IMG/VR virus record: IMGVR_UViG_3300006028_000025 | Span: 1-32,496 of that record | From: a virus | Reading direction: 5' to 3' (one strand) | DNA length: 32,496 nt | In this document: positions 5,132-28,258 of the stretch, in pieces | Layout: each line of letters opens with the position of its first letter | Position numbering within the stretch: the first letter of the stretch is position 1 | Program-made: the position numbers and the translations under genes | Notes under the pieces: generated by a model | The model's input: only the letters and a program-made list of their open reading frames with translations | Database searches by the model: none | Told to the model about the DNA's origin: nothing

Positions 5132-5522
5132 TGCCTTAATTGCGCTGCAAGCCAGCGTCACCAAAACGGCCACATTCAACGGCGCGGCGCTCATCCTGGC
5201 AGGTGGCACACCTCGCCGTGGGTTGTGGGCACGCATCGTCTATAGCGCGGCTAACACCTCATCGGGTGCTGGAACGCTTTCATGGTCCATCGATGCTTGT
5301 TACGATGGGGTGCCCACCACGTGGTTCAGTGACTTTATATCGCCCACGCTCACGCTTTCAGCCACGGCACAAGCAGGCGAAATCTATATCCCATTCAATG
5401 TGCAGCCTACCGTTGTCAGTGGTGCGATTACCGCGCCACAAATTCGCCTCTCGGTGTTTGCTATTACCGGCACAGGTGCCACCGTGACCTATCAGGGCGA
5501 TATCGTGCTGACAAAGCCGTAA
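5121..5522 (+). CDS. Beta-rich capsid accessory protein A (decoration candidate)
   Basis: 133 residues, nearly all short beta strands (WARIVYSAA, GTLSWSIDACYDG, AGEIYIPF), no helices of note, no membrane segment. It shares its whole layout with the next gene: an N-terminal strand pair, a W-x-x-x-(A/D)-x-YD core, an acidic (A)(Q)(A/D)GE turn, and a last strand ending in DIVLTKP or DLLLANP. This suggests tandem duplication. Genes of this size and fold directly after the capsid gene often encode decoration proteins or head fibres. Function is inferred from fold impression and place. AAGGAG precedes the ATG. Confidence 0.75.
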   Translation: MPTDALIALQASVTKTATFNGAALILAGGTPRRGLWARIVYSAANTSSGAGTLSWSIDACYDGVPTTWFSDFISPTLTLSATAQAGEIYIPFNVQPTVVSGAITAPQIRLSVFAITGTGATVTYQGDIVLTKP

Positions 5523-12508: not shown

Positions 12509-14457
12509 CTGCACCTGTCATCCTCACCATCGGCGGCACACCTTATCCCTTCATCGAGGACACGCTAGACATCAAACGTAAGATCAGCGAGGCAAGGCGC
12601 TTGCAGGTGACGGTCCTCGACTACGCTGGTACTGCTACCTTCCAATATCGTGAACAGATCACCGTCACCGACTCAGTACTTGGTATCCGCTACGCAGGAT
12701 TCATCATTGACGACAAGCTGGATAAGAGCAATGTTTACCCTGATCCCACCGTCGAGCATCAACTTGACTGCACCGATAATATGGCTATCCCTGCCAAGCG
12801 CACATCAAATCGGCTCTATACCACACCGACCAGCGCGGGCAAGATCGTCACCGACATGATCAACGACGTGCTGCAATTTGAAGGTGTGGCGACCGGCTAC
12901 GCAGTGCAGAGTCCTACCACCACCGCAGATTGGAACACAGGGCAAACATCAAGTGTGATTGGTGGCACCACTACAGGCGACGGTGATTTAGAACTCCTGT
13001 CCTCATCCTCTCTTGGCACATCCTACAACAGTACCGCGCAGTGGAACACCGGCACCTATAGCAACACGGCTGCCGGCTCCAACATGGACATCTCGCTGAT
13101 CGGGCAAACGCGCAATTGGGATGATGGCAATAAGAGCAGCCAAACGCTCTTTGGGAATGGGAGTCCATCGGATAAAGTGCAGGGCGGCGCCTATGTGCTC
13201 AACTGCTCCTCCGGTAGTGAGACGAGAAGTCGCCTGGACTTTGCCGGGACGTGGCAGAACGGCACCATTGAAGTCGATATCACGATCTCCAATGATACGG
13301 TATTGCCCGGCGTCACGTGGCGCACCACGAACTTCGGCGGCGCTGACGGTGGCTTTGCCTATGCTGCCGAACTCTCCACCAGCAAACTTGACATCAGAAA
13401 AGGCACGAACTCATCAGGCGGCGGCTCGACCTCATCCCTCGGCAGTTTCACCTTCTCTCCGAAGTTATCCACAGGCACGTACCGGCTGCGCATCGTGATG
13501 AATGGCTCATCTTTCACCGGCTATGTCAATGGCACGCAGTATGTGAGCGTCTCAGATGGCAGTTATAGCGCAGCAGCCATGATCGCGCTGCGCAACCGCA
13601 ATCCGAGCGGCGCAGGCTCCAATAACCAGCAATTTGACAACTTCGGCGTGATGCAGGCCATATCAGGCACATGGATAGCGCCGGGACAGGCATTAGATGC
13701 TGTGACGACCATTGCAGGCTCGGTCGTCAGTTGGGACACCTCACTCTCGGCAGGTGGCACCATCAAGGTTGAGACGAGCACCAACAATGGCAGTACCTAT
13801 CAAGTCGTGGGCAATGGCGGCTCTATCTCAACGCTTGCCATTGGTGGCAGTGGCGCAGGACTCACACTCAAGATACGGGTCACGCTGTCCACTACAACGA
13901 CGGCAACACTCCCCGATATCAGGAATTTGCAGTGGAGCGTCTTCGGCGGCTATGTCGCATCAGGCATCCGCACGACGGCGCCGCTTGGCATAGATCGTTA
14001 CGCTCGTGGCAATCAGAGCGGGCTTGGCACCGCCGATGATGGACAGGTCTACACGCAAATAGGCACCGGGACTGCCTCCATCGTCAGCAATCGCGCCAAG
14101 ATCGAGAGTTTGACCACCGATGTGTATGAAATACTGGGCAATAATTCATGGACGGATTGCGATGCTACCGTGCGCTTTCAGTTGTCCAGTGGCACCATAG
14201 CCGCAGGCATTGCGTTGCGTTTCGTGGATGTATCCAACTGGTTTCGCCTGGTGGCCTCTGCCACGCAACTCATAGCAACCAAGAATATTGCAGGCACACC
14301 GACCACGATTGCAACGGTGAGTAAGACACAAACGGTCAATTCATTTTATTGGATGAGGTTCAGGCTCTTTGGGACAGGACCAGCCACCATACAGGGTCGA
14401 GTATGGTTGGATTCGACGTTAGAACCGACAAGTTGGGATATCAACACGACGAGTTAG
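12505..14457 (+). CDS. Baseplate hub N-terminal half with LamG-like insertions
   Basis: 650 residues, starting with an ATGA overlap with the tape measure. Residues 1-130 look like the first domain of siphovirus tail hub proteins: a strand-rich start (QVTVLDYAGTATFQYREQIT), a YAGFIIDDK strand, LDCTDNMAIPAKR, then TSAGKIVTDMINDVLQFEGV. In standard hubs this helix is followed soon by a 'LA..~~~~W.ID' segment; here it is not. Instead come a low-complexity Ser/Thr part, a LamG-like jelly roll (about 230-380), an Ig-like domain (390-490) and a second LamG-like domain opening QSGLGTADDGQVYTQ. That last domain stops short of its final strands at an amber codon. The next gene continues in the same frame. 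Confidence 0.75.
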   Translation: MTAPVILTIGGTPYPFIEDTLDIKRKISEARRLQVTVLDYAGTATFQYREQITVTDSVLGIRYAGFIIDDKLDKSNVYPDPTVEHQLDCTDNMAIPAKRTSNRLYTTPTSAGKIVTDMINDVLQFEGVATGYAVQSPTTTADWNTGQTSSVIGGTTTGDGDLELLSSSSLGTSYNSTAQWNTGTYSNTAAGSNMDISLIGQTRNWDDGNKSSQTLFGNGSPSDKVQGGAYVLNCSSGSETRSRLDFAGTWQNGTIEVDITISNDTVLPGVTWRTTNFGGADGGFAYAAELSTSKLDIRKGTNSSGGGSTSSLGSFTFSPKLSTGTYRLRIVMNGSSFTGYVNGTQYVSVSDGSYSAAAMIALRNRNPSGAGSNNQQFDNFGVMQAISGTWIAPGQALDAVTTIAGSVVSWDTSLSAGGTIKVETSTNNGSTYQVVGNGGSISTLAIGGSGAGLTLKIRVTLSTTTTATLPDIRNLQWSVFGGYVASGIRTTAPLGIDRYARGNQSGLGTADDGQVYTQIGTGTASIVSNRAKIESLTTDVYEILGNNSWTDCDATVRFQLSSGTIAAGIALRFVDVSNWFRLVASATQLIATKNIAGTPTTIATVSKTQTVNSFYWMRFRLFGTGPATIQGRVWLDSTLEPTSWDINTTS

Positions 14458-19611: not shown

Positions 19612-19946
19612 TGGCATATATTGATATTACCATCGTCTCAAATGCGACCTTAACGGTTGGAACGACCAACTCGGCAACGGTTGCATCCAATGGCGAGCGT
19701 ACCTGGGTGCTCCTTGTGCGGCAAGGCGGCGGCGGTGCGCTCACGGTACAGCCGAGAGTGAGCACGGATGGCTCGAATTGGGCATTAGTAGGGACGGCCC
19801 ATGCAGTGACCATAGGGACAATCGCACGGTTTGTGTACGGTCTAGGTTCTACTGATGGCCCGATCATTGAGCCGAATATTCAGATACAGGCAGTCGTCAC
19901 TGGCTCTAGTGCTACAGGCGTCTTTGGGGAGCTTGTGGGGGTATAG
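19611..19946 (+). CDS. Small beta-sandwich virion protein
   Basis: 111 residues. Strand pattern and the segment GALTVQPRVSTDGSNWALVG resemble the core of the two capsid accessory proteins at 5.1-5.9 kb (strand, 'S.DG..W', strand), so it may be a distant third member. The ATG after AGGAGG is chosen over a longer in-frame reading that would overlap the previous gene. No tail or membrane signal. Confidence 0.65.
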   Translation: MAYIDITIVSNATLTVGTTNSATVASNGERTWVLLVRQGGGGALTVQPRVSTDGSNWALVGTAHAVTIGTIARFVYGLGSTDGPIIEPNIQIQAVVTGSSATGVFGELVGV

Positions 19947-19966
19947 CCGGCAATAAGGGGTAACTC

Positions 19967-21693: not shown

Positions 21694-21987
21694 CTATTCA
21701 TCTTTGGGCAATGTAGTCATGTCAGAAACGCGATCCTCTATGGCAATTTTGACCCATTCGGCATTGGCGCTGTCATACTCCATGATGGAATGCTCCACCA
21801 GATCATAGGCGCAGCGGGCGATGATGGCTTGTATCGCTTGCTCAAACGCTTCCATCTCTGCCTCATGTGGAGCATCAGGGTCATCATGGCTAAAGCGCTC
21901 GGCAATGATTTCACCCAGTTCTCCATCGCACATTTCACCCCACTGCAACTTTGCAAAGCCCGCAAAGTGCGTATCACGTTCGCTCAT
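21694..21987 (-). CDS. Small acidic protein on the opposite strand
   Basis: 97 residues, acidic, helical (EMEAFEQAIQAIIARCAYDL), with no recognised domain. It is the only clear - strand gene inside the + strand late operon. AGAGGTG lies just upstream of the ATG, and a promoter is placed suitably further up. A 112-residue + strand reading overlaps it but has Cys/His-rich, protein-unlike composition and no ribosome site, so the - strand is preferred. Its stop lies five bases from the fibre stop. Probably a moron gene expressed independently of late genes, but its function is unknown. Confidence 0.7.
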   Translation of the reverse strand: MSERDTHFAGFAKLQWGEMCDGELGEIIAERFSHDDPDAPHEAEMEAFEQAIQAIIARCAYDLVEHSIMEYDSANAEWVKIAIEDRVSDMTTLPKDE

Positions 21988-22008: not shown

Positions 22009-22037
22009 AGTATAGCATGGAGGCAATGATATGTCCT
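22009..22037 (-). promoter_or_regulatory. Promoter for the reversed gene
   Basis: On the - strand, AGGACA (-35, four of six bases) is separated by 17 bases from TATACT (-10, five of six), followed by the ribosome site and ATG of the acidic protein 22 bases on. It overlaps the start of the divergent + strand gene at 22031. Confidence 0.55.
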
Positions 22038-22390: not shown

Positions 22391-22445
22391 AATTCTCATT
22401 CGTTGTAGTGATATATGAGCGATGAGAGATAACAAGGAGGCATGA

Positions 22446-22694
22446 ATGACAGGACTAGAATGGTTTTCTGGTATCATTCGGCTTGCCCTGGATGAATTGG
22501 CACAATGGAATAGAGACGATGAATCTGACTACTGGCAGCCCCTACGGCCGGAAGATGTGACAGAGATCATCATTGACCCGGCGCGCCACTATCGGAATAA
22601 TGCCTGGCTTATTTACTGTAATTGGGAAAGCAAAACACCCAAGTATATGTGCATCCGCTATGTGTATGATGCTCTTTACGTTGATGATCTATGA
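22446..22694 (+). CDS. Small protein, unrecognised
   Basis: 82 residues, rich in Trp, Tyr and Asp (LDELAQWNRDDESDYWQPL; ARHYRNNAWLIYCNWESKTP). It looks like a compact soluble protein. Of two overlapping starts (ATGAATG), the second has the right distance to AAGGAGG; the first is out of frame and only 17 codons long. It is followed by the hairpin-rich gap and then the lysin. Function unknown. Confidence 0.6.
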   Translation: MTGLEWFSGIIRLALDELAQWNRDDESDYWQPLRPEDVTEIIIDPARHYRNNAWLIYCNWESKTPKYMCIRYVYDALYVDDL

Positions 22695-22997
22695 ACAAAG
22701 TGCATAAAACGCAACAATGCCTGGATGGTCTATGTGAGGCACCTCTTATGAGGCTTCGACAGGATTGCTCCTGTAGGCTTCCTCCAAGCCAGTCGTTTGT
22801 TGCACTCACATCAGCGGCCTTTCGGCTCTAGACTGATGTATCGAGTGGTACCGTGGGAACACACTAGTGCTTTTACCCAAGGGAGCTTACCTTGGAACCT
22901 GGCGAAACACTATTCACTTCTTAAGGTACTGCAAACGCCTACACTATAGCATTCTTTTTGAGGTATGAAAAAACGGAAACCAAAGGAGGAGGCATGA
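22695..22997 (+). ncRNA. Hairpin-rich non-coding region, candidate structured RNA
   Basis: 303 bases without a credible gene. By eye, perfect pairings are: GCAACAA (22711) with TTGTTGC (22797-22803) as a closing stem; inside it TGCCT/AGGCA (22718, 22737), CCTC-TTAT-GAGG (22742-22753), ACAGGA-TTGC-TCCTGT (22759-22774) and GGCTT-CCTCC-AAGCC (22776-22790). Beyond it, ACATCAG/CTGATGT (22808, 22833) with an inner GGCC/GGCT, and CCAAGG-GAGCTTA-CCTTGG (22877-22895). The set forms a plausible multibranch fold. Strand is assumed from the flanking genes. Promoters are only weak here, so it may be part of the late message, for example a leader controlling the lysin. Confidence 0.45.
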
Positions 22998-24041
22998 ATG
23001 GCATTCGGACTCGATTATGTGAGCGGTCCTCCTATTGCCGATATGAAGGCGGCGCGTGTGTCCTTCGTGTGCCGCTACACCGGCTACTTCAGTGGCTATA
23101 AAGACACGAAGCCAGAAGTTCCACAGGGCAAAGTCCTCACACCGGGGGAAGCGGCTGCGCTCTCTAAAGCCGGAATAGCCTTGGTAAGCAACTGGGAATG
23201 GTATGCTAATCGGGCGCTAGCAGGACACGATGCCGGAGCATGGGATGCACAGGAGGCACACAAAATACATACCGCCTGTGGTGGGCCTGCCGACCGACCT
23301 ATCTACTTCTCAGTGGATGTCGATGTAGCTGAGCCAGCCGTGCTTGCCTATTTCCAGGGCGTCGCATCGGTGATAGGGTTACATCGCACAGGCGCATACG
23401 GCTCATACCGGGTGATCAAGGCATTGTTTGATGCGAACGCGATCACATGGGGATGGCAAACCTACGCGTGGTCATATGGCGCGCGGGAAGGACGATCACA
23501 CATCTATCAATATGAGAATAGTGTGTCAATGGCCAGGCATGGAGTCGATTATAACCACTCCATGACGAGCGACTTCGGACAATGGGTATCAGGAGGTGAG
23601 ACGATAATGGCAATTGATATCAATACGCCCGGTGTGGCGCAAGAGTTCAAGGAAGTTGACGCTCAGCACTGGCAAAGCCTGCGTACCGGCAAGGTGATAC
23701 AGCACGGTTTGCTTGCTGCCTACAAGAAGTATGGGAATAGCGGCAAGTGTGGACTCGACTTCTTAGGTCATCCTGAAAGCAACGAGCAGGTGATCGGCAC
23801 CAACAAGGTGCGCCAATTCTTCGATAAAGGTGTCCTGTGTTGGGATAATGGGACTGTCTTCCCGCTGAACCTGTATGATAATGGACCTGGCACCGACACC
23901 CGGATAGCGGTGATGCTGGCTCAGATCGCCGCGCTCAACCAGCAGTTACAGGCAGAGCAGCAAAAGACAGCGCCACCGGACCCGGTGTTACAAGAAAAGA
24001 TAGATCGCTACGATGCAATCTTGAAGATAGTTGCCGCATAG
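22998..24041 (+). CDS. Endolysin, DUF1906-type glycoside hydrolase-like
   Basis: 347 residues. Residues 1-200 match the DUF1906 (Rv2525c-like) TIM-barrel domain: FGLDYVSGPP start, FVCRYTGYFS, a catalytic-site-like IYFSVDVDV, GAYGSYRVI, WQTYAWS and a final VDYNHSMTSDFGQW. This fold is related to GH25 lysozymes and is common in lysins of phages of Gram-positive-like hosts. The C-terminal part has CGLDFLGHPESNEQ, resembling LGFP-type wall-binding segments, then a short coiled coil (AALNQQLQAEQQK). No signal peptide, so release needs a holin. Start chosen by GGAGG five bases upstream; the ATG four bases earlier is out of frame. Confidence 0.85.
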   Translation: MAFGLDYVSGPPIADMKAARVSFVCRYTGYFSGYKDTKPEVPQGKVLTPGEAAALSKAGIALVSNWEWYANRALAGHDAGAWDAQEAHKIHTACGGPADRPIYFSVDVDVAEPAVLAYFQGVASVIGLHRTGAYGSYRVIKALFDANAITWGWQTYAWSYGAREGRSHIYQYENSVSMARHGVDYNHSMTSDFGQWVSGGETIMAIDINTPGVAQEFKEVDAQHWQSLRTGKVIQHGLLAAYKKYGNSGKCGLDFLGHPESNEQVIGTNKVRQFFDKGVLCWDNGTVFPLNLYDNGPGTDTRIAVMLAQIAALNQQLQAEQQKTAPPDPVLQEKIDRYDAILKIVAA

Positions 24042-27664: not shown

Positions 27665-28258
27665 TCATTCGCTTAACATCTTGTTATCACTTGCGTTGTC
27701 ATACTGCTTGAGCAGCGCCGACGCCGATGCCACCAACTTTGCGCCGCCTTGATGATCAGTGCGGATATTGGAGCCGGTGGCACACTTGCGCACGAAGGCG
27801 AGCAGATCGCTATTCTCCGAGGCGAGAAACAGGCATTCCCCTTGCAGTTGCGCGATATCCTTGACATAGCGCGCACTGGCCACGGCGTGCTCTGCTGCCT
27901 CGGCTTCGAGTCGAAAGATATCCCGCTGCAAGTCTTTGATTTGCAGAACAAAACCATCACTTGCCACGTCGTACTCTGCTACATCATGCTCAAGCTCACG
28001 GATACGCTCTTGCGCTGCGCTCACATCCCTTTGCAGATCGGTGATGGTCTGCTTTTGTGTTAAGATAACACTGGCCTGGCTCGCCTCGACCTCGTGCGCC
28101 ATGCCCAGGCGTTGCCGTAGGTCGGTGATAGTCTCGAAGCGCTCTGTTGCCTCTTGCGAAAGCTTCTTATTCTGCTCGAGCAACCCTTCCACTTGCTTTT
28201 CCAGTTGCGCGATCTGCTCATCTTTTTTCGATGTACGAAAGATTTGCCTAAAATCCAT
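27665..28258 (-). CDS. Long coiled-coil protein
   Basis: 197 residues, almost wholly heptad repeats from residue 12 to about 155 (EQIAQLEKQVEGLLEQNKKL; RIRELEHDVAEYDVASDGFV). A short globular end follows (TGSNIRTDHQGGAKLVASAS). No signal peptide or membrane part. The GC content and codon style match the neighbours. Could act as a spacer or scaffold for the early complexes; function unknown. Confidence 0.65.
   Translation of the reverse strand: MDFRQIFRTSKKDEQIAQLEKQVEGLLEQNKKLSQEATERFETITDLRQRLGMAHEVEASQASVILTQKQTITDLQRDVSAAQERIRELEHDVAEYDVASDGFVLQIKDLQRDIFRLEAEAAEHAVASARYVKDIAQLQGECLFLASENSDLLAFVRKCATGSNIRTDHQGGAKLVASASALLKQYDNASDNKMLSE

Follow-up and report, generated by a model that had tools for sequence, protein, structure and literature searches.

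A non-coding insert beside a phage lysin gene lies in a hypervariable slot and may be a self-promoted orphan RNA

In the window, that is, the whole 32.5-kb virus record analysed here, which encodes terminase, portal and capsid proteins on its plus strand and a DnaB helicase on its minus strand, the slot between a tail-end gene of 119 aa and the lysin gene is hypervariable among related phages. The slot of the window holds a non-coding insert that is absent from this place in all relatives compared. The best single reading of this insert, which we hold tentatively and at somewhat less than an even chance, is a self-promoted orphan RNA that would be read on the minus strand. The insert is a real, weakly supported orphan element, ordinary on its own evidence, and the slot in which it lies is unusually interesting. 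The features on which the argument depends are the following.

22009-22017, minus strand: promoter box TGCTATACT belonging to cargo ORF 21694-21987, itself on the minus strand; the homologues of this ORF in L005 and G003 have the same box
22446-22694, plus strand: 82-aa ORF, an orphan, upstream neighbour of the insert
22695-22997, no strand assigned: non-coding insert, flanked by the 82-aa ORF and the lysin gene and delimited by the ORF map and the sequence; missing from all relatives
22700-22936, minus strand: proposed RNA, its start placed according to the box spacing in relatives
22711-22803, no strand assigned: four-hairpin domain closed by GCAACAA/TTGTTGC; z -1.61 on the plus strand, -2.74 on the minus strand
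22805-22842, no strand assigned: strongest single hairpin (ACATCAG/CTGATGT); z -3.13 on the plus strand, -4.07 on the minus strand
22943-22951, minus strand: extended -10 promoter-like box TGCTATAGT; same box at the equivalent place in L066, L009 and L069
22998-24041, plus strand: lysin with an Rv2525c-like glycoside hydrolase domain (PHROGs endolysin, 3.1e-33; PF08924, 2.6e-25)

The original prediction had described a gap of 303 bases without a gene, exceptional for this genome and rich in perfect stems, and on these points the ORF map and the sequence agree with it. No credible gene lies between the end of the 82-aa ORF at 22694 and the lysin ATG at 22998, and such a length is unusual for the window, where the late genes nearby abut or overlap. 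The stems are exact: GCAACAA/TTGTTGC at 22711-22717/22797-22803, ACATCAG/CTGATGT at 22808-22814/22833-22839, and CCAAGG/CCTTGG at 22877-22882/22890-22895. The 82-aa ORF has no relatives in Pfam, PHROGs or viral_contigs. Another stretch considered as a non-coding region, 19612-19966, was discarded, being a gene.

When the loci of the relatives, located by means of the lysin, the upstream 119-aa gene and a tail-region gene, are compared, the content found downstream of the 119-aa gene differs in every one of them. For instance, in L005 the same two flanking genes are separated by 169 bp that hold a single small ORF, the slot of L002 contains three small ORFs, and that of L063 contains minus-strand genes, as apparently does that of L067; L009 combines several ORFs with a non-coding element, and elements of the latter kind also occur in L066 and L069. 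Since the content differs in every relative, the insert is to be considered cargo and not a part of the lysin gene. In this respect it resembles the phage morons, which are self-promoted cargo: it is placed between late genes, it is missing in relatives, and its promoter-like box stands opposite to the operon strand, as is also the case for the cargo ORF 21694-21987. Insertion between genes that are neighbours in relatives, as expected of morons, is observed for the insert when L005, L002 and L009 are compared. In contrast to morons, the insert lacks a coding frame, and its box is a variant and only putative.

This box, TGCTATAGT, is a one-base variant (TATAGT) of TGCTATACT, which is the box supported in relatives, and a weak -35-like TTTTCA is present at 22966-22971, with a spacer of 17. 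In the window as well as in L066, L069 and L009, the box is located where the non-coding element gives way to the next ribosome site, on the strand opposite to the late genes. The motif TGCTATA[CG]T is found 12 times in the 183 kb that the window and its relatives make up, where shuffles give 1.6, and nine of the 12 occurrences are on the minus strand; when the window is considered alone, at least two box matches are obtained in 5 of 100 shuffles. TGCTATACT precedes minus-strand cargo ORFs with homologues in three phages (the window, L005 and G003), and it lies 6-7 nt before structured elements in four relatives, three of them in the slot; those of L066, L009 and L069 have z values of -4.4, -4.6 and -3.1, respectively. 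Five other occurrences of the TATAGT variant in relatives resemble chance matches in apparently coding DNA. The cargo ORF of the window (21694-21987, minus strand, 97 aa, MSERDTHFAGF...) separates two late genes that in relatives are neighbours.

Because the box is shared with relatives, where it stands before structured RNAs and cargo ORFs, a minus-strand RNA is the reading that best accommodates the insert. We infer its transcription, its ends, its fold and its role as follows: a small gene for an orphan RNA would possess its own promoter, the extended -10 box TGCTATAGT, would begin near 22936 and would be read leftwards across the stem-rich stretch toward about 22700, independently of the late operon. 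The product would be an RNA of stable structure, whose most likely role is that of a decoy or an antisense regulator, and would constitute cargo (an RNA 'moron') in a hypervariable slot where relatives carry other minus-strand structured RNAs. The original reader had looked at the plus strand only, and the promoter-like element points to the minus strand. This reading is supported by the hairpin 22805-22842 and the domain 22711-22803, both of which fold better on the minus strand; over the 236 nt of the proposed RNA, z is -1.85. No minus-strand terminator was found for the insert. Confidence is kept tentative because the box is a variant, the first 110 nt after it are unstructured (z -0.13), and there is no homologue in which the pairs could be tested. 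An independent RNA had been among the original proposals, and the context favours it as a possible reading.

A close rival, and itself quite possible, is that the insert is functionally neutral DNA, namely a spacer or decayed remnant imported together with the 82-aa ORF by recombination, whose stems are at the level expected by chance for 300 bases. The folding energy of the entire gap is -90.8 kcal/mol on the plus strand (z -1.63 and -1.70 against dinucleotide shuffles), and 28 of 500 shuffles fold as well; on the minus strand, z is -1.61. The comparison with shuffled sequences suggested with the original prediction gave a borderline result: the gap as a whole folds only marginally beyond chance, and of its parts only the hairpin 22805-22842 stands out. 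Trimming to 22695-22960 gives z -2.68 on the plus strand and -2.25 on the minus strand. When 120-nt windows are ranked across the phage, those over the gap fall between the 48th and the 301st of 540, with many coding windows ahead, so that coding DNA of this phage often folds equally well; many other stretches of the same phage also outdo the hairpin 22805-22842. In addition, a rival helix, 22932-22936/22795-22799, uses the closing strand of the four-branched domain and competes with it. Neutral DNA is also consistent with the rapid turnover of the slot and with the fact that a homologue was found in no database searched, and an identical 11-mer before the 82-aa ORF and before the lysin could mark a joint. 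This 11-mer, a ribosome-site sequence of GAGGCATGAAT type, lies at 22435-22445 and 22987-22997, and may be either a trace of the recombination that imported ORF and insert or a common ribosome-site motif. Against neutral DNA stand the little idle DNA that phages keep, the hairpin 22805-22842, which is well beyond shuffles, and the presence of a promoter-like box where relatives have RNA genes; moreover, no frame of the insert resembles a broken gene of any fetched locus, and a decayed gene was rejected on that ground.

Considerably less probable is a plus-strand structured leader that would govern the translation or processing of the lysin, as the original prediction had proposed. The insert directly precedes the lysin gene, and two of its segments, a hairpin loop at 22781-22785 (CCTCC) and GCTTCCTCC, are able to pair with the lysin ribosome site GGAGGAGGC, which is predicted to be masked (exposure 0.24, the second lowest of 29 genes). 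However, as computed from the equilibrium fold only, the predicted exposure of the site amounts to 0.27 when 30 bases upstream are included and to 0.28 when all 303 are, meaning that the insert has no visible effect on it; the masking arises locally, from sequence that takes in the beginning of the lysin gene, independently of the insert. Furthermore, nine relatives (L002-L010) have the lysin without the insert and without a comparable gap, an ORF lying no more than about 75 bp from the lysin start. The unchanged exposure and these nine relatives together leave the leader unsupported, and an RNA-processing signal, proposed along with it, likewise found no support. Inside the lysin gene, TCCTCCT at 23027-23033 is able to pair with the lysin ribosome site AGGAGGA.

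The relatives L066 and L009 each carry in the same slot what looks like a circularly permuted tRNA-like gene.

Contig IMGVR_UViG_3300005445_000003, 12693-12810, minus strand: 118-nt permuted tRNA(Ser)-like RNA of L066 (5920-6037), with a TGCTATACT box 6 nt upstream
Contig IMGVR_UViG_3300012200_000009, 27917-28034, plus strand in the contig: 118-nt permuted tRNA(Ser)-like RNA of L009, with a TGCTATACT box 6 nt upstream

Their 5' part starts with GCCCC and continues through a perfect T-arm (GTGRGTTCAAATCYCAC) to the 3' strand of the acceptor; after a short intervening loop follow the acceptor 5' strand, the D-arm (CCGGAGTGGTTTAACGG), a 10-bp anticodon arm and a terminal GGGG able to pair with the initial CCCC. 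The acceptor is hairpin-capped. The rotated L066 RNA is accepted as a tRNA by ARAGORN, with several isotypes called, and the closest sequence matches are ordinary phage tRNA-Ser genes. Compensatory changes distinguish the RNAs of L066 and L009: at T-stem pair 9-19 a G-C is replaced by an A-T, and pairing is preserved through the changes in the acceptor. Of 31 records, only these two are matched strongly by a covariance model (R1) built from the two RNAs, and the members score 135-145 bits. Decoding is made less likely by the length of the anticodon stem and by a loop of about 7 or 8 nt, and we infer a tRNA mimic or decoy. The layout of circularly permuted tRNA genes is known from algae and archaea (PMC3978253, PMC3218864); no description of permuted tRNA-like genes in phages was found in the open-access papers searched. 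These genes are a more interesting discovery than the insert, whose context outweighs the insert itself in that it reveals, in a group of phages about which little is known, a cargo slot of hypervariable content; if expressed, the L066 and L009 RNAs could be tested as tRNA decoys. The insert shares with them the slot, the strand and a promoter-like box at the same boundary, whereas it has no T-arm, no D-arm and no rotation that yields a tRNA, fails the model and folds far more weakly. A wider reading, possible but on the unlikely side, would count the insert among a number of self-promoted structured RNAs, unrelated to one another and including permuted tRNA mimics, which this phage group exchanges through the slot next to the lysin; each of them would serve as a decoy or regulator directed at a host factor of its own.

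That the insert might itself be a tmRNA, a tRNA or a permuted tRNA-like gene, to which its slot and the resemblance of its 12-base string GGCTTCGACAGG to the tmRNA 5' signature could point, is very improbable and largely refuted by the searches: ARAGORN reported neither tRNA nor tmRNA on the gap and gave no hits on rotations of gap segments on both strands (351 are obtained with L066), model R1 gives the insert 2.1 bits (E 0.7) with a degenerate alignment, and the tRNA-like domain, including the T-arm, and the tag frame are absent. The tmRNA hint of the original prediction thus dissolves, since the 16-mer GGCTTCGACAGGATTG bearing the signature recurs in 29 other viral stretches, apparently ordinary coding DNA with only the query word in common, and is to be attributed to chance. 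The Rfam search suggested at that time was run on 22600-23100 and returned no match even at E 5. Neither an exact 16-mer search in IMG/VR nor DNA similarity searches against 50,697 phages, 72,556 plasmids and 14 related records, collections from which close copies of the record analysed here may have been excluded, gave a credible homologue, and the same holds for 396 genomes of the phylum of Nocardia carnea, a guessed phylum that may not be that of the host; one 30-nt genome match falls inside a 656-aa ORF. A T-box-like string, GAGTGGTACCGTG, at about 22844 on the plus strand, was dropped, as both an Rfam match and a stem I are absent, and a CRISPR-repeat mimic was dropped because the insert has no repeat-like hairpin. 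Among RNAs linked with phages are GOLLD and ROOL. These are large ornate RNAs (PMC12286853), which the insert resembles in being non-coding and rich in stems, and from which it differs in being smaller, unconserved and without an Rfam match.

Further elements are found after the TGCTATACT box in relatives. In L069, a structured non-coding element at 5345-5442, with a 10-bp stem (ATGCCTCTGG/CCAGAGGCAT), follows the box in the slot, and its sequence is unrelated to those of the other slot elements. L101 (contig IMGVR_UViG_3300005445_000003, just below 46361, minus strand) shows, after the box, a short stretch whose fold is a three-way junction (GACGGGCG...CGCCCGTC), with z -1.55 over 110 nt. Finally, L112 carries at 392-463 on the minus strand (contig IMGVR_UViG_3300020123_000124, near 34890-34960) a tRNA of normal order, scoring 51 bits in Rfam, directly after the box, with a 6-nt anticodon loop and without an encoded CCA; it is located about 34 kb along the contig of L002, outside the slot, and is possibly another tRNA mimic.
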